Below the pieces are notes generated by a model, which worked only from the letters and a program-made list of their open reading frames with translations, was not told the DNA's origin and did not search any database. Shown here piece by piece: positions 1,892-24,851 of a DNA stretch of 64,000 bases (the stretch's first letter is position 1; each line of letters begins with the position of its first letter). The stretch lies in NCBI RefSeq assembly GCF_009769735.1, contig NZ_WSRO01000002.1, positions 9,225,001-9,289,000 on the forward strand, in the 5' to 3' direction. This DNA is from Streptomyces sp. BA2 (GTDB taxonomy: Bacteria > Actinomycetota > Actinomycetes > Streptomycetales > Streptomycetaceae). The position numbers and the translations under genes are program-made.

Positions 1892-2776
1892 ATGGCAGAG
1901 CTCCCCGTCACGTTCATCCAGGTCACCGACATCACACGCATCACACCGCGGATGGCCCGCGTGACGTTCGAGGCCTCCCACCTCGACGACTCAGTCGGCC
2001 TGACCCCGGACCAGCAGCTCAAGCTCTGCTTCCCCCGGCCCGGCCAGGAGCGGCCCGTCCTGCCGGAGCAGAGCGACGACGCGACGGGCTGGTACCAGGC
2101 ATTTCTGGCCATTGCGGAGGACGAGCGGCCCTGGATGCGCAGCTTCACCCTCCGCCGGCGCGTACCCGGGACGAACACCGTCGAGGTCGACTTCGTCCTG
2201 CACGGCGACAGCGGCCCGGCCAGCGCCTGGGCCGGCTCCGCCCGCCCCGGCGACCGGCTCGGCATGGTCGGCCCCTCCGCGCTCTACGCCGGACCGGTCT
2301 CCCTGACGGACTCGATCGCCTCCACCGACTGGCTGCTGCTCGCCGGCGACGAGACGGCACTGCCCGCCATCGGCACCCTGCTGGAGGCCCTGCCCGAGCG
2401 GACCCGCGCCCAGGTCTACATCGAGGTCGCCGGCCGCGCCGAGCAGCAGACCTTCCAGACGGCGGGCGACGTCACCCTGCACTGGCTGCACCGCGACGGA
2501 ACCCAGGCCGGCCGCAGCGAAGCCCTGATCGACGCCGTCCGCGGCGCCGAGTTCCCGCCCGGGCGCCCCTTCGCCTGGCTGGCCGGCGAGGCAGGCGTCG
2601 TCCGGACCCTGCGGCGCCACCTGGTCAACGACAGGGGGCTCGACAAGCGCGCGATCGACTTCAGCGGCTACTGGCGCGTCAAGCTCACCCAGGACGACGC
2701 CCCGACCGCCGACGACATGGCCGAGGCGCAGGAGCGCCTCGCCGAGTACCAGGCGGCGGCCGATGGCCAGTCCTGA
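1892..2776 (+). CDS. Siderophore-interacting protein (SIP family flavin reductase)
   Basis: Belongs to the SIP/ViuB family of FAD-containing ferric-siderophore reductases. The N-terminal FAD-binding barrel contains RSFTLRR (the RxYTxR-type flavin motif) at about residues 85-91; the C-terminal NAD(P)H-binding domain has LLLAGDETALPAI and the end motif GYWR. 294 residues, normal length. A GGAAGG ribosome site precedes the ATG. It is first in an operon with DrrA- and DrrB-like exporter genes, so it may process a chelated-iron or redox-active cargo. The divergent TetR probably controls it. Confidence 0.9.
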   Translation: MAELPVTFIQVTDITRITPRMARVTFEASHLDDSVGLTPDQQLKLCFPRPGQERPVLPEQSDDATGWYQAFLAIAEDERPWMRSFTLRRRVPGTNTVEVDFVLHGDSGPASAWAGSARPGDRLGMVGPSALYAGPVSLTDSIASTDWLLLAGDETALPAIGTLLEALPERTRAQVYIEVAGRAEQQTFQTAGDVTLHWLHRDGTQAGRSEALIDAVRGAEFPPGRPFAWLAGEAGVVRTLRRHLVNDRGLDKRAIDFSGYWRVKLTQDDAPTADDMAEAQERLAEYQAAADGQS

Positions 2777-2855
2777 CGAGCCGCGCGCCGGAGCCGGCAT
2801 CCCGGCCGGGCGCCGCGAGTCGGCCGGACGACTGCCGGGCCGAGAGAAGGATTTG

Positions 2856-3839
2856 ATGATCACAGTACGAGGTCTCGCCCGCCGGTTCACCGTGCGCGGC
2901 CAGAGTGTCGAAGCGGTCAAAGGCATCGACTTCGACGTGGCGCCCGGGGAGGTTGTCGGGTTCCTCGGCCCCAACGGGGCGGGCAAGACCACGACCTTAC
3001 GGATGCTCACGACCCTGCTGCGCCCCACCGGCGGAACCGGCACCGTGGCCGACTGCGACCTGCTGACGGACCCCCAGGGCGTCCGGCGCAGGATCGGCTG
3101 CGTCCACCAGGGCGGCGCCACCTGGCCCGAGTCCAGAGTCGCCGAGGAGATCGAACTCCAGGCCCGGCTCTACGGCCTGTCCCGGTCCGAGGCCAAACGG
3201 CGCGGGGCCCTGCTCGCCGAGCGGCTCGACCTCGCCGGCCTGGACCAGCGCCCCGTCAAGACGCTCTCCGGCGGTCAGCGCCGTCGGCTCGACATCGCTC
3301 TCGGACTGGTCCACGAACCGACGCTCGTCTTCCTCGACGAGCCCACCACCGGGCTCGATCCGCAGAGCCGGGCCAACCTCTGGGACCACGTCCGCCGCCT
3401 GCGCTCCGAGCAGGGCACGACCGTCTTCCTCACCACGCACTACCTCGACGAGGCGGACGCGCTGTGCGACCGGATCCTCGTCACCGATCACGGCACGATC
3501 GTCGCCGAGGGAACCCCCGACGCACTCAAGGCCCGGGTCGCCGGCGACGCGATCACCATCGAGGTGACCGACCAGATCGCGGAGGCGGCCGACGTCGCCG
3601 GGCGGCTGACCGGCGCGACCGAGGTGAGCGTTGACGGCGACACGGTGCGCTTCCGGGTGCCCCGCGGCGACGCCGCCCTGCCGGAACTGCTGCGCACCCT
3701 CGACGGCCGGGGGATCACCATGGTCTCGGTCAAGGTCAACCGGCCCACCCTCGACGACGTGTTCCTCAGCCTGACCGGACGCTCCCTGCGGGACGACGAC
3801 CCCGCGCCCCAGGCCAGGGAGGCCGTCCATGCTGCGTGA
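2856..3839 (+). CDS. ABC transporter ATP-binding protein, DrrA type
   Basis: Walker A is GPNGAGKTTT, the signature is LSGGQRRRLDIA, and Walker B with its glutamate is LVFLDEPTTGLDP, followed by the H-loop TTHYLDEAD. The C-terminal ~80 residues form the extension typical of daunorubicin-type exporters (DUF4162-like). The ATG at 2856 is preferred because AGAAGG precedes it; the frame stays open upstream but overlaps the SIP gene. It would energise export through the membrane partner encoded downstream, whose gene overlaps this one by 11 bp. Confidence 0.93.
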   Translation: MITVRGLARRFTVRGQSVEAVKGIDFDVAPGEVVGFLGPNGAGKTTTLRMLTTLLRPTGGTGTVADCDLLTDPQGVRRRIGCVHQGGATWPESRVAEEIELQARLYGLSRSEAKRRGALLAERLDLAGLDQRPVKTLSGGQRRRLDIALGLVHEPTLVFLDEPTTGLDPQSRANLWDHVRRLRSEQGTTVFLTTHYLDEADALCDRILVTDHGTIVAEGTPDALKARVAGDAITIEVTDQIAEAADVAGRLTGATEVSVDGDTVRFRVPRGDAALPELLRTLDGRGITMVSVKVNRPTLDDVFLSLTGRSLRDDDPAPQAREAVHAA

Positions 3840-4596
3840 CACCCAACTGATCTTCGTGCGGGACATGAAGCTCGCGCTGCGCAGCCCGACCTGGCTGCTC
3901 ATCGGGATCATGCAGCCGCTGCTGTACCTGTTCCTCTTCGGACCCCTCATGGTGTCCGTGGTCGACCACACCCCCGGTTTCCCGCCCGGCGGCGCCTGGG
4001 AGGTCCTCACCCCGGCCCTCATCGTCCAGACGGCATTGTTCAGCGGCTCCTTCGCCGGGGTGGGGCTGCTCACCGAGTACCGGGTCGGCGTCGTCGACCG
4101 CTTCCGCGGCACGCCCGCGAGCAGGGCCGCCTTGCTGTTCGGCAAGGTCCTGGCCCAGGCTGTGCAAGCCACCGCGCAGTCCGTACTGATCGTGCTGGTG
4201 ACGCTGCTCGTCTTCGACCTCGACGCCTCACTGACCGGGCTGCTGCTCAGCCTGGCGATCGCCGCGGTCCTGGCCATCACGCTGTCCTCGGGATCGTACG
4301 CACTGGCGATGGTCCTCAAGAGCGAGGCCGCGTTCCCCGCGCTGATGAACGCCGTGCTCCTGCCGCTTCTGCTGCTGTCCGGGGTGCTGCTGCCGGTCTC
4401 CGAGCAACTGGCCCCAGGCTGGCTGTACAACCTGGCCCGGATCAACCCCCTGACCCATGTGGTCGACGCCGAACGCGCGGCGTTCCGGGGGGACATGAGC
4501 GCCACGGGGCTGCTGACCGGCTGCCTCGTGCTGCTGGTCATGGCCGCCCTCGCCCTGCTGTGGGGCACGCGGACCTTCCGCAAGGAGAACGCCTGA
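3829..4596 (+). CDS. ABC-2 type transporter permease, DrrB type
   Basis: 255-residue inner-membrane protein with about six hydrophobic segments (for example [19 protein letters not shown] near residue 24 and [14 protein letters not shown] near residue 180). The motif [14 protein letters not shown] in the first cytoplasmic loop and [19 protein letters not shown] near the end are DrrB/NodJ hallmarks. It starts inside the end of the ATPase gene, implying translational coupling. It forms the export channel with the DrrA-like ATPase and is followed by a strong terminator. Confidence 0.92.
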
Positions 4597-8883: not shown

Positions 8884-9384
8884 TCAGGACCGCAGTGTCT
8901 TCAGGGTGGCGCAACCTTGCGTGACGCATGCCCTGATCCAGACGGTGCGGCCTTCGGACAAGTCCTTATCGACGAACTTGAAGCTGTTTGCGCCCACCCG
9001 GAGGCGATCGAAGAAGTAGTGGGCCCGTCCGTCGCGGATGTACCAGGCCGTGAATGCCGCCGACTGGCCTTTGGTGTTGAGGTAGAAGTTCTCGCCCTTC
9101 GCGCGGAACTCGATACTCCCGAAGTTGGGGTTGCGAACGTTGTTGATCTTGACGGCGCCGCTGACGCCTCCGGAGTCGCCGTCCGTGGGACGCCGGTAGC
9201 AGAGCCCTTCCCAGTCGTCGTGGACAGGCACCAGGTTGCAGCCCACAGGCACCGCGGCGGCGGGTGTCGCGGTTGCGAGCGGGATAGCCGTGGCCATGGC
9301 GGCAGCGGCGAGCGCCGCGATGCCCAGGCCCTTGGCGCTGCGTCGGGTCTTCGCGTTCACGGTCGGGTTGCGATGTGTCCTCAT
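8884..9384 (-). CDS. Secreted hypothetical protein
   Basis: 166 residues with a long Sec signal: basic start (RTHRNPTVNAKTRRSAKG), hydrophobic core (LGIAALAAAAMATAIPLA) and likely cleavage after ATPAAA. The mature part has four Cys (C49, C62, C153, C158 approximately), consistent with two extracellular disulfides, and a beta-rich pattern (NFYLNTKGQ, AWYIRDGRAHYFF). A GGAGA ribosome site precedes the ATG. It is one of four small secreted Cys-bearing proteins in the window. Confidence 0.75.
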   Translation of the reverse strand: MRTHRNPTVNAKTRRSAKGLGIAALAAAAMATAIPLATATPAAAVPVGCNLVPVHDDWEGLCYRRPTDGDSGGVSGAVKINNVRNPNFGSIEFRAKGENFYLNTKGQSAAFTAWYIRDGRAHYFFDRLRVGANSFKFVDKDLSEGRTVWIRACVTQGCATLKTLRS

Positions 9385-9591
9385 GCTGGGTGTCTCCGTG
9401 TCCTCTGCGCCGCTTTCCCCGGGCCGGCACGTCTCCCGTTGCCGACCGGCTTCGGCCGACGTGTCTTCAGATGCCCTAGGTGGCCTGTGGAGTTGCAGGT
9501 GGGGCGTCCCATGCGAAGTGGGGGCGCGACTGAGCCATGTGGCCTGGCGGCGGGCGCCCTGCGCGCTCCGCCCCCGCGGCGTGCTGCCTGG

Positions 9592-10008
9592 TCAGGTCTT
9601 GCCCGCAGGGCTCCAACCCGAGCACACGGCGCCGGGCAGTTTCGAGGTGCACACCTTCACCTTGACGGACTTGCCCTCGTCGTAGCCCTGGTTTCCGTAT
9701 CGGTTGATCTCATGGCCCTGGCTGGTGAATCGGGCAGTTCCTTCACCCGCGACCTTGACGTAGGCGATGGTCCACCGGCCGTTGTCGAACTCGTCCCAGA
9801 CGGTGACCCTGTCGCCTTCCTCCACATAGCTGACCTTGACTTTACTGCCGCCCTTCTGGCAGTACGCCATGGTGTACACGCCGTTCGACTCTCCACCGCA
9901 GTTCCAGGAGGCTGCGTGAGCGGGACCGGCTCCTACCAGGGCTGTTGCTGCGGCCAATCCCAGCAGCGCGGTGGCTGCTCCGGTGCGTCGGGCAACTAGT
10001 TGAGACAT
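9592..10008 (-). CDS. Secreted hypothetical protein
   Basis: 138 residues. Signal peptide with hydrophobic core TGAATALLGLAAATALVGAG and AHA-A cleavage; mature part SWNCGGESNG...AYCQKGGSKVKVSYVEEGDRVTV is beta-rich with four Cys. The start at 10008 has AAGGA five bases upstream; the frame is open further upstream but codon quality drops. It sits in tandem with the secreted protein at 8884-9384 in the same direction. Confidence 0.75.
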   Translation of the reverse strand: MSQLVARRTGAATALLGLAAATALVGAGPAHAASWNCGGESNGVYTMAYCQKGGSKVKVSYVEEGDRVTVWDEFDNGRWTIAYVKVAGEGTARFTSQGHEINRYGNQGYDEGKSVKVKVCTSKLPGAVCSGWSPAGKT

Positions 10009-10119
10009 AGTGATCCTTACCGCAGTTGTGGGGCCGGTGAGCCTTCCCCGTTGATGCGTACACGCTGCCGCGTGCACGGGAAGGGGGACAGAGCTTTCGG
10101 GCAGGACCGAAACACATGT

Positions 10120-10375
10120 CAGGGGAGGCCGTGCGCCGCTCCCTCCAGGGTGTCCTTCAACGCGGCCAGCGTCCTGCGCAACGTCCGTTCGTTGTGGTCC
10201 GCCCGCGGTCCCGTGCGGCCGAGTCGCACGTACGCCCGACCGAGCAGCATCCCGAAGGGATCCACCCGCAGGTCGTGCTAGGTCTGCTCGGCTCGGGTGC
10301 CGCACTCGGTAGGGGTGAACGTGAACGTCCAACGGGCCACGGCAAGAACCGCTGTCCGGCACCCCGTACGACGTG
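10120..10375 (-). pseudogene. SRPBCC (polyketide cyclase-like) fragment
   Basis: The minus-strand translation WTFTFTPTECGTRAEQT, stop, HDLRVDPFGMLLGRAYVRLG, then RTLRRTLAALKDTLEGAAHG resembles the C-terminal half of SRPBCC/polyketide-cyclase proteins. There is an in-frame TAG, and the N-terminal half is missing. The rest of 10009-10513 shows no gene. Confidence 0.55.
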
Positions 10376-10513
10376 GGCAAGACGGTTAAACGCCCGGGAA
10401 CCCCCAAAGCCATCGGCCGCCTCCGGAAGATAAAGAACAAGCTAAGCGGCCAGGCGCAGCCATCTGCGGTGCCAGAACATGCCCGGGGGCGTCGCCGCCG
10501 GCCCGGCCCGGCG

Positions 10514-11359
10514 TCAGCGTGTCGGTTTCCGGGTGTGCTGCGCTGTGGCGACGGGATCATCCGCCGCGAACGCCAGCGCGCGCCAGTCGGGCACCAGGTT
10601 GGTCCTGATCAGGTCATCGATCTCCTCGACCTGAGACGCTGTCAGGTAGTCGCGGAATCCGCCGATGATCCCGCGGCGGGTCTTGAAGGACTCGGGGTCA
10701 CCCGGTCTGCCGGGCCGTAGGCGTTCCGAGTTGAGGGTGTCGCTGAGTTCCATCGCCCGCATGCTCGGGAAGCTGGCGAATTCGACCGCTTCCCGCAGCA
10801 CTTCGGGCTCGACTCCCGGGAGTCCGCAGAAGGCCATGATCCGGGCGAGTTCTGCGGAGGTGTCGGTTGCGAGACGCTCGTAGGAGGTGAGGAGGAACGA
10901 CCGTGGAACGTCCTGACAGGCGTGCCATATGTTCCAGAACGCGACACAGGTCCGCAGGCTGCCCTCGTGTTCACCGATGAACTGTCCGAGCGGGCCGGTA
11001 TAGGGATTGTCCGGCCGCAGACTCCGCTGGAAATAGTAGGAAACTGTCGTGTCACGCAGGTCGCGGGTCAAGAACACCACCCGGCGATCGCGGTAGTGCT
11101 CCTTGTCCGTGGACAGTTGCCCCGGTGTGCGCCAGCCGACTCGGTCGTCGTGCCAGAAGGTGATCTCCGGGATCCGCGTATCCGCGGCACTGAACTCCTC
11201 CAATCGCAGATCTCGGCACATCTCCATCGGGAGGCCCCAGCTGAGCGAGATGGCCTTGGCCATCAGTAGCCGCAGCCAAGTGCGTCCGCACTTCGGGAAG
11301 GAGAGGACATAGACATCCGCTGTGGCGGAGAGTCCAGGAAATAGCGATGAGCCCGTCAT
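10514..11359 (-). CDS. PAPS-dependent sulfotransferase
   Basis: 281 residues. The 5'-phosphosulfate loop is SFPKCGRTWLRLL at about residue 20; the 3'-phosphate motif is FLTRDLRDTTVSYYF near residue 97; the C-terminal RRGIIGGFRDYLT matches the RKGxxGDWKxxFT motif. It should transfer sulfate from PAPS to a hydroxyl or amine of a small molecule. It points away from the YcaO operon but shares the interval with the ferredoxin gene, so sulfation of the cluster product is a reasonable inference. No signal peptide. Confidence 0.88.
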   Translation of the reverse strand: MTGSSLFPGLSATADVYVLSFPKCGRTWLRLLMAKAISLSWGLPMEMCRDLRLEEFSAADTRIPEITFWHDDRVGWRTPGQLSTDKEHYRDRRVVFLTRDLRDTTVSYYFQRSLRPDNPYTGPLGQFIGEHEGSLRTCVAFWNIWHACQDVPRSFLLTSYERLATDTSAELARIMAFCGLPGVEPEVLREAVEFASFPSMRAMELSDTLNSERLRPGRPGDPESFKTRRGIIGGFRDYLTASQVEEIDDLIRTNLVPDWRALAFAADDPVATAQHTRKPTR

Positions 11360-11495
11360 GGAGAATGACTATGTACCCTGCGGGCAACCGCACAATAGCG
11401 TCGAGAGGCGGGGGGAGTGGCAGCACGGTGCGCACTGGCTCAACTCAGCCTCGCGCCGGTCGGCTCGTCGGCTGTATGCGGGTCGGCGAGCAGAA

Positions 11496-11738
11496 TCACT
11501 GACGTTCCTCCTCTTCGGGAAAGAGCGTCAGCCCCGTACTCCGCTCGACGACCGAGATAGCCTCCACAGGGCAGGTGAACGCCGCGTTCAGTACTCGGTC
11601 GTCGGGGGTGACGTGCGCGGCGGTCGGCCGCGACCGGCGGGTGCTGTCGAGCGTGAAATGGTGGGGCGCGGCACTTGCGCACACTCCCGAACCGATGCAG
11701 AGACGGCTTTCGACGTCGAGCTGCCAGTCCTCCGTCAT
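11496..11738 (-). CDS. Ferredoxin of P450 systems, [3Fe-4S] type
   Basis: 80 residues from the ATG at 11738. Cys motif CIGSGVC (residues 14 and 20) and CPVEAI (Cys 56) fit the three-Cys pattern of Streptomyces ferredoxins that serve cytochrome P450s. The start MTEDWQLDVES and an acidic end are typical. It is divergent from the RiPP-like operon, which contains a P450 4 kb away, and is the natural electron donor for it. Confidence 0.88.
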   Translation of the reverse strand: MTEDWQLDVESRLCIGSGVCASAAPHHFTLDSTRRSRPTAAHVTPDDRVLNAAFTCPVEAISVVERSTGLTLFPEEEERQ

Positions 11739-12266
11739 GTGATTCCTCCCCTTTTTCGTGCGCTCTCGCTCCGCGACTCCTCTCGGCCTGGTGAAGATTC
11801 CCTGACCACCTGACCAGACATATGCGGAATTCTCGGCGACCGTCCGTGCGACAGAGCAGGGGAATGGCGCCAATGGCGCGCAGGAGGGGTTCTTCTCCAA
11901 AGTACCCATCCCTTCGACCCAGCGGAAGACCGCCTCATCCGGCCATCTTTGACGCATCCCGGGCGTCGGCGATATGGCTGAGACCGGCCGATCGCTCAAC
12001 ATCTCGGCCGGCGGTCCCCGAACCTCCCGGTCCGCCCACGGCACGGCCTTCCGCCGAAAAACCGCCGTGAGCCGATTGCACCGGACAGGTGCCTCACACC
12101 GGCCCTGACTCCTTTGGCTAGCCGGATTTCGGACTGCACGCCGGCGTCCGGATACCCTTCGTATCCGCCACCCACCCTTGGCCGCGGCAATTGAGCCACG
12201 GACGATGACGCTGCCGGTGAAGCCCGACCGATCACGGTGGGGCCGGTGAGGTGAAGGGAGTCCTCC
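11739..12266. promoter_or_regulatory. Divergent intergenic region upstream of the putative RiPP operon
   Basis: About 530 bp with no recognisable gene on either strand. It must carry the promoters of the ferredoxin (minus) and of the precursor-like ORF (plus). I could not pick out a confident -35/-10 pair or a regulator site. Confidence 0.5.
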
Positions 12267-12347
12267 ATGAACGAGGAAATCGAGCAGGTCGCAGACGAAG
12301 ACCTTCCCGAGCTCGCGCTGATGATTGACATCCCCTCTCGCGACTAG
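12267..12347 (+). CDS. Putative RiPP precursor peptide (26 aa)
   Basis: Short ORF with an excellent ribosome site (GAAGGGAG, six bases before the ATG). It encodes an acidic stretch (MNEEIEQVADEDLPEL) followed by a C-terminus LMIDIPSRD. It contains no Cys, Thr, Lys, Gly or aromatic residue and only one Ser (Ser24). The last five residues, IPSRD, resemble the end of FxSxx-COOH peptides (with Ile for Phe), whose neighbours often include HExxH proteins. It stands immediately before the HExxH and YcaO genes, with two hairpins in between. The leader/core boundary is unknown and the role as precursor is inferred from position, size and start signal. Confidence 0.7.
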   Translation: MNEEIEQVADEDLPELALMIDIPSRD

Positions 12348-12353
12348 TCGCGA
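12338..12353. repeat. 16-nt perfect palindrome over the precursor stop codon
   Basis: TCGCGACTAGTCGCGA, self-complementary, with the TAG stop in its centre. It could be a cleavage or stability element in the mRNA, or an operator. Confidence 0.6.
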
Positions 12354-12372
12354 CGGCACATCCGCACTTCCC

Positions 12373-12397
12373 GCGGCGGGCCCTTCCGGCCCGCCGC
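12373..12397 (+). terminator. Hairpin between precursor and modification genes (attenuator-like)
   Basis: Perfect 10-bp GC stem GCGGCGGGCC / GGCCCGCCGC with a CTTCC loop, 26 nt after the precursor stop and 34 nt before the HExxH gene. In peptide-maturation operons such partial terminators keep precursor mRNA more abundant than enzyme mRNA. Confidence 0.7.
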
Positions 12398-12430
12398 ACG
12401 TCGCTGTCGAGGTCCGGAGAATGAGGGTGC

Positions 12431-13411
12431 ATGCGCGTCGAACCGGATGCCAAGGAGGCTGTCCACGAACGGGATCAGCTGCTGCGGCGCATGCGGAGCG
12501 TGCTCGAGCGAGCGGAGCTGGTGCCGCCGGGCGGCGACGGTCTGCGCCATCCAGCGGTGGCCGAGGTCGCCCACACCGCCCAACGGGCGCTGCGGTCCGG
12601 CCCGCTGGATCAGGAGCGGCGGCGGAGGCTGGCCGAACGACTGGAGCAAGTGTCACCGTCCGCCTTCGGGCCCGCTGACCCGCAGGGCCATCTGAGCCGT
12701 AGCGTGACCCGGGCGCTGCGGTCCATCCCGGCTCATCAGCGCGCCGACGGACAGCCGGTCACGGCCGAGGTCGCGGTGTGGCAGGAATGCGAGCGCGAGG
12801 CGCTGGCCCAGGCTGTCAGCCTGCTGACCCGGGTCTGGCCCGAAGCCGCCGCCGAAGTACGGGAGACGGTCGCCGAGATTGCGCTGCTGGACGGCGATGC
12901 GATCGACGGGTTCACGGACTTCACCATTCACGGCGCCATCCTGGTGCACCGGGCCCGCCTGACGGCCGGTGCCGCCGGGCTGCCGGGCCCGGTGCGGTTC
13001 GCCGAGGCGCTGGTGCACGAGGGTGCGCATACCCGGTGCAACGCGGCGGCTCTGACGGATCCTTTCCTGCTCCCCGACCTCCCCGACCTCCCCGGCCGGC
13101 CTGACCTCTCCGACCAGGCCGAGGGCGCCAGCGGTGCGGAGCGAGGTGAGGACCTGCTGGTCGCGACGCCGCTGCGGGCCGACCCCCGGCCGCTGACCGG
13201 CCTGTTCCAGCAGACGGTGGTGCTGGCCCGCAGTGTGCTGCTGTACCGGCGGCTCGCCGGTCCGGACCCGGCGGTCGGCTCCCGGCACGAGACACTCCTG
13301 GGCGCGGCGCACCAGGCCGTGGACACCCTGGGGGCCTACGCCGACAAGCTGACGGCCCACGGCAGAGGGGTGCTGGCGGAGTGTGCCGACGTCATCGGAG
13401 AATCCGCGTGA
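12431..13411 (+). CDS. HExxH-motif peptide-modification protein
   Basis: 326 residues. The motif HEGAH lies at residues 196-200 in the context FAEALVHEGAHTRCNAAAL, followed later by VVLARSVLLYRRL and a C-terminal helical part. This matches the actinobacterial HExxH family found beside RiPP precursors, some members of which are alpha-ketoglutarate-dependent peptide beta-hydroxylases. It is thus a metal-dependent enzyme likely to hydroxylate the precursor, rather than a classical protease. A short Pro/Asp/Leu repeat (LPDLPDLPGRPDLSD) sits in a loop. Its TGA overlaps the GTG start of the YcaO gene, so the two are translationally coupled. GGAG precedes the ATG. Confidence 0.82.
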   Translation: MRVEPDAKEAVHERDQLLRRMRSVLERAELVPPGGDGLRHPAVAEVAHTAQRALRSGPLDQERRRRLAERLEQVSPSAFGPADPQGHLSRSVTRALRSIPAHQRADGQPVTAEVAVWQECEREALAQAVSLLTRVWPEAAAEVRETVAEIALLDGDAIDGFTDFTIHGAILVHRARLTAGAAGLPGPVRFAEALVHEGAHTRCNAAALTDPFLLPDLPDLPGRPDLSDQAEGASGAERGEDLLVATPLRADPRPLTGLFQQTVVLARSVLLYRRLAGPDPAVGSRHETLLGAAHQAVDTLGAYADKLTAHGRGVLAECADVIGESA

Positions 13412-14535
13412 CGTCATGGGCGCCCCAGGTGTTCTCGCCCTATCCGCAACAGCCGGACATCGTGTTCGCGCGGGTAGCTGCCCGCTCGGCGGCGTTCGAG
13501 AGTACGAGCGCCGCCGGCGGAGCGCCGGTGCTCGTCGGCAGCGCCGCAGGGCACGACCGGGACCAAGTCGTCCTGAGCGCGCGCGGAGAGCTTTTGGAGC
13601 GGCTCGGGAATGTGATGGCGGGGCGGGAGGCCGAGGCCGCCGCCGAGCTGGTGGGCACCCGCGAGGAACTGCGCCGCAAGGGGGTACCCGCCATCGAGCC
13701 GCGGCCCGGCCCGGACACCAGAAGGCTGTGGGTGCGCGGCCGGACGACCGGCGGTGCGGAGGTGTTCGTCCCGGCGGGCTCGGCGTTTCTCCACCACCGG
13801 CCCCCCGCCGGGTGCGATGCCGCGCAGTCGTCGGGGTCCACCGGCATCGCCGCGCACCCCGACATGACGGCGGCGGCCCGCCACGCGGCCTGGGAAGTGC
13901 TCGAACGCGACCTGCTGCGGCGCAGTTGGTACGGGCTCGCCGACCGGCCGCGGAGCCTGCTCCCGTTCGTTCCCCCGCCGCCCCTAGCGGCCTTCCTCCG
14001 GGACGGCGGGCTGACGATGACGGCCTTCGGCCTCCCCGCTCCGGCTACGACGGCCTGTGTCGTCGTATGCCTGCACCGGCCCGACGGCACCGGTCAGGCG
14101 TTCGGTGCCCGCTGCGGGCCGGCGCACACCGTTAAGTCCCTGGCCGAGAAGGCGGCCTACGAGGCGCTCATGGTGCGGTGGAGCATGGGGACACCGGTCG
14201 CCCGTGCGGCCTGGGAGCAGTGGCACGGCACGAGCGAGCCGGCGACCGCCGTCCAGCACGCGCTGTGGACCTATCACCGCCAGGACAGCCTGCGGCTGTG
14301 GAACGTGTCGCGACACACGGGCACCCGGCCGGAGAACGGCGTGCGGACGGACCGGCTCGACGCGACGGATCCGCTCGACGTGCTCGCCGGGCACACCGGC
14401 CAGGACGTCGCCCTGGTGGAGAGCACCGCGGCAGCCGCCCGCGACGCCGGCGTGCGGGTGGTGCGCATACTCGCCCCCGGAGCCCTGCCCCTGCCGTCCG
14501 GTCCCTGCCCCGGACACCCCCACCCTTTCGGCTAG
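13408..14535 (+). CDS. YcaO-domain protein (ATP-dependent peptide cyclodehydratase-like)
   Basis: About 375 residues from a GTG overlapping the preceding stop (GTGA). The YcaO ATP-binding region is seen as SSGSTGIAAHP at about residue 140 followed by AARHAAWEVLERDLLRRSW, and later EKAAYEALMVRW. The C-terminus is Pro-rich and ends PGHPHPFG, similar to the C-terminal Pro motif of azoline-forming YcaOs. There is no fused E1/C-protein and no TfuA gene nearby, so it is a stand-alone YcaO. Family members activate backbone amides with ATP to make azolines, thioamides or amidines. With only one Ser and no Cys/Thr in the putative substrate, an amidine or a single oxazoline is more likely than multiple azoles. 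Confidence 0.85.
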   Translation: MTSWAPQVFSPYPQQPDIVFARVAARSAAFESTSAAGGAPVLVGSAAGHDRDQVVLSARGELLERLGNVMAGREAEAAAELVGTREELRRKGVPAIEPRPGPDTRRLWVRGRTTGGAEVFVPAGSAFLHHRPPAGCDAAQSSGSTGIAAHPDMTAAARHAAWEVLERDLLRRSWYGLADRPRSLLPFVPPPPLAAFLRDGGLTMTAFGLPAPATTACVVVCLHRPDGTGQAFGARCGPAHTVKSLAEKAAYEALMVRWSMGTPVARAAWEQWHGTSEPATAVQHALWTYHRQDSLRLWNVSRHTGTRPENGVRTDRLDATDPLDVLAGHTGQDVALVESTAAAARDAGVRVVRILAPGALPLPSGPCPGHPHPFG

Positions 14536-14542
14536 GAGCCCC

Positions 14543-15283
14543 ATGAACCCCGCCCCATCGCTGTTGTCCCGACCCGGCTATGCCTCCGACTACGCCGACG
14601 ACTACGACCGCTGGTTCGCCAAGCCGGGTATCACCGGAGCGACCGTCGAATCCCTCGCCGCTCTCGCAGGCCACGGGCCGGTCCTCGAACTCGGCATCGG
14701 CACCGGCCGGGTAGCCCTGCCCCTGCGGGCACGCGGCATCGGGGTGCACGGCGTCGACGGGTCCGAGGCGATGCTCCGCCGCCTGCGCGCCAAGCCGGGC
14801 GGAGCCGGGATCCCGGTGACGCTCGGCGACTTCGCGGAGGTCCCGGTGGACGGGAGCTTCAGCCTGGCCTTCCTGGCCGGCGGCACCTTCGCCGAACTGC
14901 CGGACCAGGCCGCCCAGGCCCGCTGTTTCACCAACGTGGCAGCGCGGCTCACGCCGGGCGGTCTGTTCGTGCTGGACGCCCACGTGCCCGAGGCCCTGGC
15001 GGCGGCGACCGGACCGGAGATCGTCTCCGAGGGGGAGGACCACCTGGTGCTGTGCTACCGACGACTCGACCCGTCGACCCAGCGCTACCGCTCGCACTAC
15101 GTCATCCACGAGGACGGACGCACCCGGCACCTGCGCGTCGAGTTCCGCTACGCGGGCCACGGCGAACTCGACCTGATGGCACGTCAGGCGGGGCTGCGGC
15201 TCAAGGAACGCTGGGGCAGCTGGACCGGCACCCCCTTCACCGGCGACAGCACCTACCACGTCTCTGTCTACGAACGCCCCTGA
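14543..15283 (+). CDS. SAM-dependent class I methyltransferase
   Basis: 246 residues. Motif I is VLELGIGTGRVALPLRARG at about residue 45, followed by the acidic ribose-binding end GVHGVDGSEAM, motif II/III regions FSLAFLAGGTFAEL and LTPGGLFVLDAHVPE. The N-terminus YASDYADDYDRWF is typical of small-molecule methyltransferases. AGGAG lies before the ATG, 8 bp after the YcaO stop. It could methylate the peptide or its sugar. Confidence 0.9.
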   Translation: MNPAPSLLSRPGYASDYADDYDRWFAKPGITGATVESLAALAGHGPVLELGIGTGRVALPLRARGIGVHGVDGSEAMLRRLRAKPGGAGIPVTLGDFAEVPVDGSFSLAFLAGGTFAELPDQAAQARCFTNVAARLTPGGLFVLDAHVPEALAAATGPEIVSEGEDHLVLCYRRLDPSTQRYRSHYVIHEDGRTRHLRVEFRYAGHGELDLMARQAGLRLKERWGSWTGTPFTGDSTYHVSVYERP

Positions 15284-15316
15284 CCAGCACACCCTCACAC
15301 AACGGCGGAAGGCCGA

Positions 15317-16504
15317 ATGAAGCAGCCAGAACAAATCCAGTCGTTCCCCTTCCCGCACCGGGACGGGCTCGACCCGATACCCGAGTTCGCCGAGCTGCGC
15401 CGCAACGCTCCGGTCATCCGGGTCCGGATGCCCAGCGGCGACACCGCGTGGCTGGTGACCCGGCACGCGGACGTCCGCCGCGTCCTGGCCGACCCCTGCT
15501 TCAGCCGGGCTCGGGCGACCAGGGGCGAGGGCCCCAGGGCCGCCCGCACCACCACACTGCCCGACTCGATCCTCGCCGCCGACCCGCCCGACCACTCCCG
15601 GCTGCGCCGACTCGTCGCGCCGGCCCTCAGTGGTCGCCGGGCAGAAGCGATGCGCGGCGACATCGCGCTCCGGGCCGACCAGTTGCTGGCGGGTATGGAG
15701 CGGCAGCCGTCCCCCGCCGATCTCGTCGCGTCCTTCACCCGGCCGCTGCCCCTGACGGTGATCTGCGACCTGCTGGGGACACCCCGGCTCGACGGTGACC
15801 AGCTCGACGCCTGGAACGACGCGATGCGCAGCGTCACCGCCATGCCGGACGCCGACGTCATGGCTGCGGTGGACGACATGACCCGCTATCTCACCGTCCT
15901 CGTCGCCGCCAAACGCGCCCACCCCGGCAACGACATGCTGAGCGTGCTGATCGCGGCACGGGATGAGGGCGACCGGCTGAGCCAGGGCGAACTCATCTCG
16001 TTCTGCATCGTCCTGCTCGCCGGCGGCTACGGCACCACCGCCGACCGGCTGGCCGGCCTGGTCCACCTGCTGCTGGACCAGCCGGAGCGCTACCAGCTGC
16101 TGTGCCGCGAACCGAAGCTGATCCCCGGTGCCGTCGAGGAACTGCTGCGGTACGCCCAGGCCACCGTCGGAGCCAACCTCCGGGTGGCCACCCAGGACGT
16201 GGTGCTGAGCGGGGTGGAGATCGAGGAGGGCGAGGCGGTGATCGCGCTCACCTCCTCGGCCAACCACGACGAGGACGTCCACACCGCGCCGGACCTGCTC
16301 GACCTCACACGGGCCGCTCCGGCACACCTGGCCTTCGGGCACGGCGCCCACTTCTGCGTCGGGGCGCAACTCGCCCGGGTCCAGCTCCAGGAGGCCCTCA
16401 CCGGCCTGACGGGCCGCTTTCCGGCCCTGCGCGCGGCGGGCCCGGCGGACTGGAAGCGCGGCCAGATCACCCGGTCCCCCCGAACACTGCCGGTGCGCTG
16501 GTGA
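15317..16504 (+). CDS. Cytochrome P450
   Basis: 395 residues. Heme motif FGHGAHFCVGAQLAR with Cys347 as the thiolate ligand; K-helix EELLRYAQ (ExxR); I-helix LLAGGYGTTADRL, where the usual acid before TT is replaced by Gly, which may alter proton delivery. N-terminal region DPIPEFAELRRNAPV is typical of Streptomyces tailoring P450s. Soluble. It is the fourth gene after the precursor, and electrons probably come from the divergent ferredoxin. Hydroxylation or cross-linking of the peptide is a plausible role. Confidence 0.93.
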   Translation: MKQPEQIQSFPFPHRDGLDPIPEFAELRRNAPVIRVRMPSGDTAWLVTRHADVRRVLADPCFSRARATRGEGPRAARTTTLPDSILAADPPDHSRLRRLVAPALSGRRAEAMRGDIALRADQLLAGMERQPSPADLVASFTRPLPLTVICDLLGTPRLDGDQLDAWNDAMRSVTAMPDADVMAAVDDMTRYLTVLVAAKRAHPGNDMLSVLIAARDEGDRLSQGELISFCIVLLAGGYGTTADRLAGLVHLLLDQPERYQLLCREPKLIPGAVEELLRYAQATVGANLRVATQDVVLSGVEIEEGEAVIALTSSANHDEDVHTAPDLLDLTRAAPAHLAFGHGAHFCVGAQLARVQLQEALTGLTGRFPALRAAGPADWKRGQITRSPRTLPVRW

Positions 16505-16670
16505 GACATGACCGGCCCCCTGCGTCCCACCACGAGGAGAACCCGGTGGCCCGTGCGGAGCCGGCCCGGCAACAACCCCCCAGCGCGCGGCGGCACCAAC
16601 CGGCCGCGCCCGTACCGGCCACCGCATCCACACCGGCCACCGCGCCACGGCGAGCAAGGAGTAGCACGGC

Positions 16671-17816
16671 ATGCGCATCGCCTACCTGCACGGAGGCAGC
16701 ATCCCCTCGTTCTTCGCCAACGGCGTCCATGTCATGCGCATGTGCGACGCGTTCACCGACGCCGGGCACGACGCCACCCTCTACTCCCTGCCCGGCTCCT
16801 ACACCGACGACGACCCGTACACGTACTACGGCGTCCGTCACCGCTTCCCGATCCGGCTGATCCCCGCCCCCGACTACACCCCGGCCGGCTACCGCAAACG
16901 CGGCGAGGACGTTCGTGAGCTGCTGACCGGTGACGTCGCCCCGGACCTCATCTACGCTCGCGATCCCTACACCCTGACCGCCACCGCCGACCTTGCGCCC
17001 TTCGTGTACGAGGTCCACCAGCTGCGCCGGGACCTGCCCGCCGGGACCGAACAGGCCCTGCTCAGTCACCCCCGGCTCGCACAGGTCGTCGTCGTCACCC
17101 ATGCGCTCGCCCACGACCTCCAGGAAGCCTACGAGCACCTGGGCGCGCTGCCGATCCGCGTCGCACCCGACTGCGCCGACCCGCCGGATCCCGACCCGGC
17201 GGTCGACATACCCGGGCTGCCGGGCCGCCCGGACGCACCGAAGATCGGCTACGTCGGGCACCTCTACGACGGGCGCGGCATCGACCTCATCCTCGACCTC
17301 GCAGGCCGGCTCCCCGGCTACGACTTCCACCTGGTCGGCGGCACCACCGAGGACAGGGCCCGCTGGGAGGACCCCTGCCCGCATCCCAACGTGTACTTCC
17401 ACGGGCACCGGCCGCCCTCCGCCCTCCGCGGCTACTTCCCGCTCTTCGACGTGGTCCTCGCGCCCCACCAGCCCAAGGTGTACACCTGGGGCCGCCTCGA
17501 CGAGATCGGACGCTGGACCTCCCCGATGAAACTGTTCGAGTACATGGCCCACGGCCGGGCCATCCTCGCCTCGGACCTCCCAGTCCTGCGCGAAGTCCTT
17601 CAGGACCGGGTCAACTGCCTGCTGCGTCCGTCCGACGCCCCGCAGGCCTGGGCCGACGCCCTCACCGAGCTCGTCACGGACCAGACATTGCGCAGGACGC
17701 TCGGCGACGAAGCCCGGCGGCAGTTCCTGGAGCACTACACCTGGCGCCGCCGGGCCGACCTGGTCCTCGCGGACCTCGGCCTGCCGGACACCCCGGGCAC
17801 CGGCGGGACGCGGTGA
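16671..17816 (+). CDS. GT4-like (GT-B) glycosyltransferase
   Basis: 381 residues. N-terminal Rossmann domain starts MRIAYLHGGSIPSFFANGVHV; the C-terminal nucleotide-sugar domain has IGYVGHLYDGRGIDLIL, FHLVGGT and SPMKLFEYMAHGRAILASDLPVLREVL, the E-x7-E-type motif of retaining GT4 enzymes. An AAGGAG precedes the ATG. The 166 bp between the P450 and this gene show no separate ORF I can defend. Its stop overlaps the start region of the epimerase gene. It would attach a sugar to the cluster product, using hydroxyls made by the hydroxylases. Confidence 0.9.
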   Translation: MRIAYLHGGSIPSFFANGVHVMRMCDAFTDAGHDATLYSLPGSYTDDDPYTYYGVRHRFPIRLIPAPDYTPAGYRKRGEDVRELLTGDVAPDLIYARDPYTLTATADLAPFVYEVHQLRRDLPAGTEQALLSHPRLAQVVVVTHALAHDLQEAYEHLGALPIRVAPDCADPPDPDPAVDIPGLPGRPDAPKIGYVGHLYDGRGIDLILDLAGRLPGYDFHLVGGTTEDRARWEDPCPHPNVYFHGHRPPSALRGYFPLFDVVLAPHQPKVYTWGRLDEIGRWTSPMKLFEYMAHGRAILASDLPVLREVLQDRVNCLLRPSDAPQAWADALTELVTDQTLRRTLGDEARRQFLEHYTWRRRADLVLADLGLPDTPGTGGTR

Positions 17817-17863
17817 CCACACCCTCCGGACCAGCGGTAAGACTCACCTCAGGGGAGAAGTTC

Positions 17864-18844
17864 ATGCAGCAATGGGCTACCCGGCAACCGGCACTGGCCA
17901 GGGCCGTCGTCACAGGTGCCGCCGGCTTCATCGGCTCGCACCTCGTCGAAGCCCTCCTCGCGGGCGGGGCCACCGTGGTCGGCGTGGACCGCCGCGCCCC
18001 CGGCCTCGACCCGGCCGCCGCGGCCAATCTGGGCCGGGCCCTCGGCGACCCGAACTTCACGCTCGTCACGGCCGACGTGCGGATCGTTCCGCTCACGGCC
18101 CTGTTCCGGCAGGCCGACGCGGTCTTCCACCTCGCCGCCCAGCCAGGGGTGCGCGATTCGTGGGGCGAGCGGTTCACCGAATACACGTCGTGCAACATCT
18201 TCGCCACCGAACGCGTGGTGTCCGCCTGCGAGGACGCCCGCGTACCCCGCCTCGTCTACTCCTCCTCCTCCAGCGTCTACGGGACCAGCAGCCACGCCAC
18301 CCGCGAGGCGACCGCACCGAACCCCGCCTCCCCCTACGCGGTCAGCAAGCTCGCCGGCGAACAGCTGTGCCTGGCTCACGCCAGCCGGGCCACGTCCGCG
18401 CTCACCGCGGTGGCGCTGCGCCTGTTCACCGTCTACGGGCCCCGCCAACGCCCCGACATGCTGATCGGCCGCGCCCTGACGGCGGCTCTGGGCGGCCCGG
18501 AGCTCACGCTCTACGGGGACGGCCGTCACACACGCGATTTCACCTACGTCGGCGACGTGGTCCGCGCCGCGATCGCCGCCGCCACCCGTCGGATCGGCAC
18601 GACTGTCCTGAATGTCGGGGCCGGCGTCAGCACCAGCGTGCTGGACGTGCTGTCCGCCGTCGAGGAGCTGACCGGTCACGCGGTGCCGGTCGCCAGGCTC
18701 CCCGCGCAGGCCGGTGACGTGGACGCCACCCTCGCCGACCGCTCCCGGGCAGCGGCCCTCCTGGACTGGGCACCCCGCACCACCCTCGTCCAAGGCATCG
18801 CCCACCAGCTGTCCCACCTCACCGCCGACTCCCTGCGGCCCTGA
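17864..18844 (+). CDS. NAD-dependent epimerase/dehydratase (extended SDR)
   Basis: 326 residues. NAD-binding VVTGAAGFIGSHLVEAL at about residue 15; the catalytic part has YSSSSSVYGTSSH and YAVSKLAGEQL (YxxxK). It resembles UDP-glucose/UDP-glucuronate 4-epimerases, so it probably supplies the nucleotide sugar for the adjacent glycosyltransferase. The ATG at 17864 is chosen because AGGGGAG lies 8 bases upstream and places the Rossmann motif correctly; an in-frame GTG at 17813 overlapping the previous stop is the alternative. Last gene of the operon. Confidence 0.9.
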   Translation: MQQWATRQPALARAVVTGAAGFIGSHLVEALLAGGATVVGVDRRAPGLDPAAAANLGRALGDPNFTLVTADVRIVPLTALFRQADAVFHLAAQPGVRDSWGERFTEYTSCNIFATERVVSACEDARVPRLVYSSSSSVYGTSSHATREATAPNPASPYAVSKLAGEQLCLAHASRATSALTAVALRLFTVYGPRQRPDMLIGRALTAALGGPELTLYGDGRHTRDFTYVGDVVRAAIAAATRRIGTTVLNVGAGVSTSVLDVLSAVEELTGHAVPVARLPAQAGDVDATLADRSRAAALLDWAPRTTLVQGIAHQLSHLTADSLRP

Positions 18845-24261: not shown

Positions 24262-24390
24262 CCGGTATCGGCGAATCCAGGGCCTGATCAGCAGTTTCGG
24301 TGGGTCCGTGGGGATCGTCTACGTGCCGCCGAACTGAGCTTGCTCTGTAACCTTTGGCGGAGTCTTGGTGACACCGGTAGGTTCTCCGCG

Positions 24391-24851
24391 GTGACGTTGA
24401 TGGAGGCGCAGGGCCTCGCGTCGATGACCGACGAGGCGCAGTTACGTTGGATGGCGTTGGGGGAGACGACTCGGCTGCCGGCCGTGGTCCTGCTCCATGG
24501 CGGTCCGGGGCTGCCGGATTATCTGGGCGATGTCGCCCCCAGAATCGCGGACCTCGCACCCGTGTACCGGTACGACCAGCGTGGCACAGGCCAATCCCCG
24601 TGGCGGGGCCGCCATTCCTTCGCCCGGCATGTCGACGATCTCGCCGAGCTACTCGACGCATGGGAGGTGCCCAAGGCCGTGCTGATCGGGCACTCCTACG
24701 GCACTGACCTGGCGAGTCGGTTCGCCAGCATCTACCGGGCGGCGAGGCGTACCCCGAAGCCGTCGAGGCCGCGCACGCCGACTTCGCCGCCATGAACAAC
24801 GGAGCGGTCTCCGAGCCCCGCACTCACGCAGAGGCCCTGAAATCACGCTGA
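24391..24851 (+). pseudogene. Alpha/beta hydrolase (proline-iminopeptidase-like), internally deleted
   Basis: Starts well: AVVLLHGGPGLPDYLGDVAP, VYRYDQRGTGQSPW and the nucleophile elbow VLIGHSYGTDLASRF. Just after it the frame shifts, and the other frame reads GEAYPEAVEAAHADFAAMNN to a stop at 24851. The segment carrying the catalytic Asp and His is deleted, so the product is inactive. Confidence 0.75.

Follow-up and report, generated by a model that had tools for sequence, protein, structure and literature searches.

In the open-licence literature searched, YcaO proteins are described as enzymes that install oxazolines or thiazolines, amidines or thioamides, and they are found alone or together with E1-like or TfuA partners. 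A second family of peptide-modifying enzymes, the alpha-ketoglutarate HExxH type (aKG-HExxH), is reported to hydroxylate the beta-carbon of His, Asp, Phe, Gln and Pro residues (PMC13060819), and two of its members, PflC and PosC, are reported to cut off a C-terminal tetrapeptide, with an amide as the new end (PMC12636437). Both kinds of enzyme are found with a wide range of partners in these accounts. Here we describe a locus in which genes of both families lie side by side. It is located in a 64,000-nucleotide stretch of the Streptomyces sp. BA2 genome (C2:9225001-9289000 of a 10.04-Mb genome in two contigs), which we call the window, and it is very probably the biosynthetic gene cluster of a member of a widespread actinobacterial family of ribosomally synthesized and post-translationally modified peptides (RiPPs) with an HExxH-YcaO core pair, an assessment that does not extend to the ring chemistry.

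The core of the locus lies on the plus strand and consists of a gene for a 26-residue precursor peptide (MNEEIEQVADEDLPELALMIDIPSRD; 12267-12347), an aKG-HExxH-type peptide beta-hydroxylase homologue (12431-13411; 326 residues), a divergent stand-alone YcaO protein (13408-14535; 375 residues) and a methyltransferase dependent on S-adenosylmethionine (SAM), here called MT1 (14543-15283; 246 residues; Methyltransf_25, matched on a longer open reading frame (ORF) starting at 14057). When 392 genomes of the genus were searched with the HExxH protein, 23 matched at E <= 0.001, the own genome included, and longer stretches were fetched for 20 of the other 22, leaving out the weak hits G020 and G266. 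A YcaO gene adjoins the HExxH gene in 16 of these 20 loci (L032-L047) and was found in none of the other four (L048-L051); counting the own genome, the adjacency is seen in at least 17 of the 392. A scan of named genome contigs with a YcaO alignment gave 29 further entries (L052-L080), mostly from Streptomyces and also from Kitasatospora, Embleya, Nocardiopsis and others, seven of which repeat or nearly repeat loci already in the set. Although found by YcaO alone, 27 of the 29 contain the HExxH gene and 28 the MT1 gene; the two without HExxH are L063, whose stretch stops at a contig end, and L080, to which we return below.

The two proteins were also found joined in a single ORF, of 758 residues in Streptomyces sp. 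UNOB3_S3 (L076, 3165-5441) and of 748 residues in S. abikoensis (L077, 6933-9179). Both fusions exceed the TIGR04267 cut-off of the HExxH family, and with 77.2 and 76.3 bits they stay below that of the YcaO model TIGR03604. From the fusion, the overlapping genes and the shared precursor we infer that HExxH and YcaO are a functional unit. In L048 (7895-10480), one of the loci without YcaO, the HExxH homologue adjoins a P450 gene (38% identity), which is possibly a sister pathway.

The conservation of the short ORF is the evidence that carries the assignment as a RiPP cluster. The original prediction had proposed such a cluster, with a stand-alone YcaO and a coupled HExxH protein as its basis, and had named the recurrence of this pair without a conserved short ORF as what would speak against it. 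A matching short ORF was found in 45 of the 46 YcaO loci (the window, L032-L047 and L052-L080). These ORFs comprise 38 different DNA sequences and encode 35 different peptides, 24-32 residues long with start codons chosen by script. The short plus-strand precursor that had been predicted was thus supported by comparison, and the position it had lacked could be given as 12267-12347, with GAAGGGAG upstream of the ORF. A longer ORF (11822-12070) matched no family, and the comparison favours 12267-12347. The peptides share a C-terminal motif, P-[ED]-[LFY]-[AG]-L-M-[VI]-D-[IVLF]-[PG], followed by 1-5 residues; in the window it reads PELALMIDIP (12306-12334, plus strand) and is presumed to be the core region. 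The residues behind Asp-x-Pro vary (S, SRD, D, DQD, FEE, G and others). The Asp, following Val or Ile, is common to all 38 distinct precursor genes; the final pattern required it, but the ORFs had initially come to light through less strict patterns or in lists of short ORFs. Neither Ser nor Thr nor Cys is invariant across these genes, and some have one or two Ser after the Pro. On the basis of these sequences, the acidic N-terminal half of the 26-residue peptide is probably the leader and the C-terminal half, LALMIDIPSRD, probably the core. As for its position, the precursor ORF stands directly before the YcaO gene in L063 and L080, and in L074 and L075 it stands before an HExxH gene located behind the second methyltransferase gene.

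The specificity of the motif was analyzed with a degenerate 29-base DNA pattern in 384 whole genomes. The pattern gave 16 matches, one each in 16 genomes, and the reversed control pattern gave none. All 16 sites are short ORFs beside an HExxH-YcaO pair, and of the 17 genomes with the observed adjacency, the own one included, all are positive except that of L037. Within the 64-kb window the pattern occurs once, as compared to 0 of 100 shuffles, and the loci without YcaO (L048-L051) are also without the short ORF. By these comparisons, the genes of the cluster are not grouped by chance.

The HExxH protein carries HEGAH at residues 196-200 and RADPRPLTGL at residues 249-258, scores 51.7 bits with TIGR04267 (cut-off 40), and matches the ChlB HExxH oxygenase both in profile and in fold (predicted model as compared to PDB 8s5f). 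The HExxH motif is kept in all 37 loci that have the gene in our non-redundant set, which comprises 39 loci after merging those with YcaOs above 97% identity and in which a gene is scored as absent when the fetched stretch does not contain it. Its score above the curated cut-off and its fold place the protein in the aKG-HExxH-type peptide beta-hydroxylase family, in agreement with the peptide-modifying role that had been proposed for it; the hydroxylation itself is predicted. Of 7996 candidate NCBI proteins that were scored, 260 matched at E <= 0.001, and among the 120 matches listed the HExxH protein of many genomes already has the name 'aKG-HExxH-type peptide beta-hydroxylase'. The own genome has two more HExxH-domain places (C2:556727-557212 and C2:6018681-6019202; 175.8 and 167.1 bits), both far nearer to the family model than the HExxH protein of the cluster.

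The YcaO protein reaches 70.9 bits with PF02624 (cut-off 25.7; scored on a longer ORF starting at 13381), as compared to 349.7 bits for a second YcaO in the same genome. It has the ExxER and ExxERD motifs, and its predicted model (predicted local distance difference test value of 85) matches the folds of MjYcaO, LynD and MkYcaO. With 82.8 bits it remains below the cut-off of the SagD model TIGR03604 (219.25). The C-terminus is PHPFG in 16 of 16 aligned YcaOs of the family, one of which has an extra Q behind it, and the HExxH-YcaO fusions end in PHPLG. Among 30 high-scoring comparison YcaO proteins, grouped by score and not by known activity, the tail is NPxPxF in 27 and NPxAxF in 3, and one survey describes a proline-rich C-terminus as characteristic of azoline-forming YcaOs (PMC8442711). 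In our reading PHPFG is a tail of the cyclodehydratase type, although the protein falls short of the SagD cut-off. No Pfam match to E1/ThiF, TfuA or radical SAM proteins was obtained among the window proteins scanned, which are a subset of the window ORFs, as had been predicted for radical SAM and E1 partners.

The scheme that follows starts from what is directly observed, namely the gene content, the conservation of the precursor, the linkage and fusion of the pair, and the family membership of the HExxH protein; every reaction in it, the leader/core border and the order of steps are predicted from these. HExxH and YcaO would work as a pair on the core of the 26-residue precursor. The HExxH enzyme would beta-hydroxylate the conserved Asp, and the YcaO would activate the neighbouring amide and cyclodehydrate the new Asp hydroxyl onto the carbonyl of the preceding Val or Ile, giving an oxazoline-type ring. 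Hydroxylation of Asp followed by this cyclodehydration is the chemistry that we tentatively prefer. It is favoured because the precursors share an Asp after Val or Ile and no Ser, Thr or Cys, because aKG-HExxH enzymes are reported to hydroxylate Asp, among other residues, and because PHPFG resembles the NPxPxF tails and a proline-rich C-terminus is described as a mark of azoline-forming YcaOs. It would also account for a YcaO of cyclodehydratase-like character in a pathway whose core conserves neither Ser nor Thr nor Cys. Put differently, the pathway might 'make its own Thr': a hydroxyl placed on Asp by HExxH would let the coupled or fused YcaO close a carboxylate-bearing oxazoline, which a P450 or a PhyH-type oxygenase could convert into an oxazole, a proposal that we regard as possible and no stronger than that. 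Asp being normally inaccessible to YcaO chemistry, the pair could then, with the same reserve, be a two-enzyme machine for azol(in)es that needs no Ser, Thr or Cys. If hydroxylation does supply the group for ring closure, encoded Ser, Thr and Cys do not set the limit of what YcaO enzymes can do, and both the recognition of precursors by mining tools and the scope for engineering would change. For in vitro tests, the naturally fused protein of L077 and its 30-residue precursor offer a compact system.

Several observations weigh against this picture. Membership of the YcaO family does not by itself imply azoline formation, the SagD score being far below the cut-off. In Kitasatospora mediocidica (L080, 7692-11000) the precursor and YcaO genes are accompanied by MT1, PhyH and sugar genes, and no HExxH gene lies within 17 kb. 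This weakens a strict dependence of YcaO on HExxH, which may be supplied in trans or may not be needed; an HExxH protein of this species (P0067) is encoded on a contig of different length. L037 is the sole YcaO locus that has the HExxH-YcaO pair and no intact precursor motif. It shows MAAELPERALMTLYPTPTGS at the expected place, with LPExALM retained and the remainder not; its HExxH and YcaO frames are open (9019-11563), and the cluster is probably decayed, since methyltransferase and P450 are absent from the fetched stretch. Finally, Pfam recognised neither a leader peptidase nor an exporter in 10514-18844, and a simple scan gave no promoter- or terminator-like sites, a result of little weight in Streptomyces.

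An amidine route with separate hydroxylation is about as likely as the Asp-ring chemistry and thus equally tentative. Here the YcaO would join an amine to a backbone amide of the core, giving either a macroamidine like that of bottromycin or a six-membered amidine like that of streptamidine, and the HExxH hydroxyl would be only a site for glycosylation or sulfation. According to the same survey, the bottromycin YcaO makes its macroamidine without a partner protein, and streptamidine, with the Cys-free core HLSATH, has a six-membered amidine (PMC8442711); the absence of an invariant Ser, Thr or Cys from our core fits this. A free N-terminal amine would need prior removal of the leader, however, and a peptidase was not recognised in 10514-18844. 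The Ser after the streptamidine ring, moreover, may be needed according to that text (PMC8442711), and the family has no such conserved Ser, while the HExxH-YcaO fusion suggests a coupling tighter than mere decoration.

Less likely than either, and rather improbable in itself, is an oxidative cut of the backbone by HExxH near the C-terminus, leaving an amide end, with YcaO acting independently. PflC and PosC, of the same family, are described as cutting in this way at ARMD, a sequence fully conserved in the Pseudomonas precursors (PMC12636437). The variable 1-5 residues behind Asp-x-Pro look as a discarded tail might, but this tail is unconserved, in contrast to the invariant ARMD. We consider it still more doubtful that the YcaO sulfurates a backbone amide to a thioamide. 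The YcaO model does fit two archaeal YcaOs (6peu and 6ci7), which we take to be thioamidating, about as well as it fits the cyclodehydratase LynD; against this stand the lack of a TfuA match among the scanned window proteins and the PHPFG tail resembling cyclodehydratase-type YcaOs. That there is no peptide pathway at all, the short ORF being a regulatory leader or a chance ORF and the enzymes acting on a small molecule, would suit an ORF so short with no known product, but is very improbable given the residue-level conservation across 35 distinct peptides, the strictness with which the ORF accompanies two families of peptide-modifying enzymes in the genomes, and the peptide substrates of YcaO and HExxH enzymes in the published work at hand.

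The remaining genes would tailor the modified peptide. The original prediction had listed the genes of 10514-18844 from the sulfotransferase to the epimerase, and all were present with reading frames free of internal stops. They are closely spaced on the plus strand, as had been claimed, with 4-nt overlaps between HExxH and YcaO and between glycosyltransferase and epimerase, and gaps of 83 nt from precursor to HExxH, 7 from YcaO to MT1, 33 from MT1 to P450 and 166 from P450 to glycosyltransferase. Relatives of the sulfotransferase, glycosyltransferase, epimerase and ferredoxin recur in other loci of the HExxH-YcaO family, which supports their inclusion in the cluster.

In the 39 non-redundant loci, YcaO is present in all (by construction), HExxH and MT1 in 37 each, a glycosyltransferase in 25, an epimerase in 23, a P450 in 19, at least one sulfotransferase in 15, a PhyH-type oxygenase in 11, a second methyltransferase in 10 and a ferredoxin in 7. 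P450 and PhyH never occur together in one locus. A glycosyltransferase is present in 11 of 11 PhyH loci and in 15 of 15 sulfotransferase loci, and 23 of the 25 glycosyltransferase loci have a P450 or PhyH, the remaining two being L062 and L063, whose stretches stop at contig ends. Six loci (L066, L073 and L076-L079) contain the core only. Precursor, HExxH, YcaO and MT1 would accordingly be the core, to which P450 or PhyH, glycosyltransferase and sulfotransferase look like nested additions. Because gene presence is nested, these counts, which are not weighted for the kinship of the loci, suggest the order core modification, oxidation, glycosylation and sulfation. The YcaO tree places the window in a starred group of ten, made up of nine loci with a P450 and L037. 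Nine of the 39 loci also encode a protein whose C-terminal domain is N,N-dimethylformamidase beta-like (5770-7164 in L038 and homologues), six of them together with a UDP-glucose dehydrogenase.

In terms of steps, MT1 would methylate the peptide core. The P450 (15317-16504, plus strand; 395 residues; PF00067, 82.1 bits) would oxidise the peptide with the help of the ferredoxin, and P450 or PhyH may oxidise the ring further. Its heme-Cys motif is intact and its I-helix reads GGYGTT. P450s usually carry an acid before the I-helix Thr; in 16 aligned family P450s (the window and 15 relatives) this position is Gly in 15 and Ser in one (GGYSTT, L032), and the missing acid may point to an unusual oxygen activation. 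The small ferredoxin (11496-11738, minus strand; 80 residues; Fer4_13, 37.2 bits, and Fer4_15, scored on the part 11496-11720) is likely the electron donor of the P450, and in L033, L034 and L036 its homologue stands directly behind the P450 gene. The GT4-type glycosyltransferase (16671-17816, plus strand; 381 residues; PF13692/PF13524) would add a sugar shaped by a GalE-like NAD-dependent epimerase/dehydratase (17813-18844, plus strand; 343 residues; PF01370, 182.2 bits; TIGR01179, 145.6 bits, below its cut-off of 262.3). The sulfotransferase (10514-11359, minus strand; 281 residues; PF00685, 68.7 bits, cut-off 22), presumed to be a late tailoring enzyme dependent on 3'-phosphoadenosine-5'-phosphosulfate (PAPS), would sulfate the product. 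It carries the motif LSFPKCGRTW, presumably the PAPS site, and has homologues of 60-64% identity in L039, L043, L045, L058, L064, L075 and L080. To our knowledge, a sulfated and glycosylated RiPP would be unusual.

Elsewhere in the window, the gene of a siderophore-interacting protein precedes an exporter pair of the DrrA/ABC-2 type (1892-4596, with the ABC exporter pair at 2763-4596), and this group gives no sign of cluster membership. An alpha/beta hydrolase that weakly matches S33 aminopeptidases (24340-24795) likewise has no known link to the cluster.

Compared with known systems, the locus has the general hallmark of a RiPP pathway, a precursor gene beside modifying enzymes that is conserved among relatives (45 of 46 loci; 16 of 16 pattern sites). 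With linear azol(in)e-containing peptides, or thiazole/oxazole-modified microcins (SagD, TIGR03604), it shares the YcaO fold, the ExxER motifs and a PxP-F-like C-terminus; it differs in the sub-cut-off SagD score and in a core that is not rich in Ser, Thr or Cys. The E1-like/ocin-ThiF partner of that class gave no Pfam match in a search confined to the scanned proteins of the window, where a very divergent partner is possible, and the TfuA partner of thioamidated RiPPs gave none within the same confines. The radical SAM enzyme required for the FxSxx cyclophane class was not found among the scanned proteins, and MT1 scored 69.1 bits on 14543-15283 with the daptide methyltransferase model (daptide_MTase, NF041820), below its cut-off of 175.

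Bottromycin is alike in having a stand-alone YcaO, a methyltransferase and an Asp in the core, and it has two YcaOs and radical SAM proteins (PMC4603692, PMC8442711), as compared to one YcaO with HExxH, glycosyl- and sulfotransfer genes here. The streptamidine type (PMC8442711) also has a stand-alone YcaO and no Cys/Ser/Thr-rich precursor region and is widespread in Streptomyces. Its short, conserved hydrophobic motif is ALV as compared to ALM here, and its precursors have 31-89 residues as compared to 24-32. Its ami set (FecBCDE, AmiB, AmiC and AmiE), compared here by listed gene set and not by Ami sequences, is without HExxH, P450 or sulfotransferase (PMC8442711). No FecBCDE-type transporter was matched among the scanned window proteins, although many streptamidine-type members lack parts of the ami set, in the same account (PMC8442711). 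The HExxH-YcaO pair was not found described in the open-licence full-text literature, which omits most subscription papers, and these loci may be included in the supplementary networks of the survey in which RiPPER was applied to actinobacterial stand-alone YcaOs (PMC8442711).

The nearest relatives of the HExxH protein are the aKG-HExxH RiPP hydroxylases (ChlB with its HExxH domain in PDB 8s5f, PflC/PosC, PesO and BpmH/BipH), with which it shares family, fold and the aligned HExxH and RxDxRPxxGL motifs, and which act on RiPP precursors in the publications at hand. The partners of these hydroxylases, as far as those publications name them, are radical SAM enzymes, multinuclear non-heme iron-dependent oxidative enzymes (MNIOs), MNIO-nitroreductase and Asn-synthetase-like proteins, whereas here the partner is a YcaO, fused to the HExxH protein in two loci. 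Genetically, and in those two loci also physically, HExxH and YcaO have thereby become a single unit, which has its own family of precursors of 24-32 residues. The enzyme superfamilies are known; their combination and the precursor family appear to be new, as far as the open-licence literature shows.

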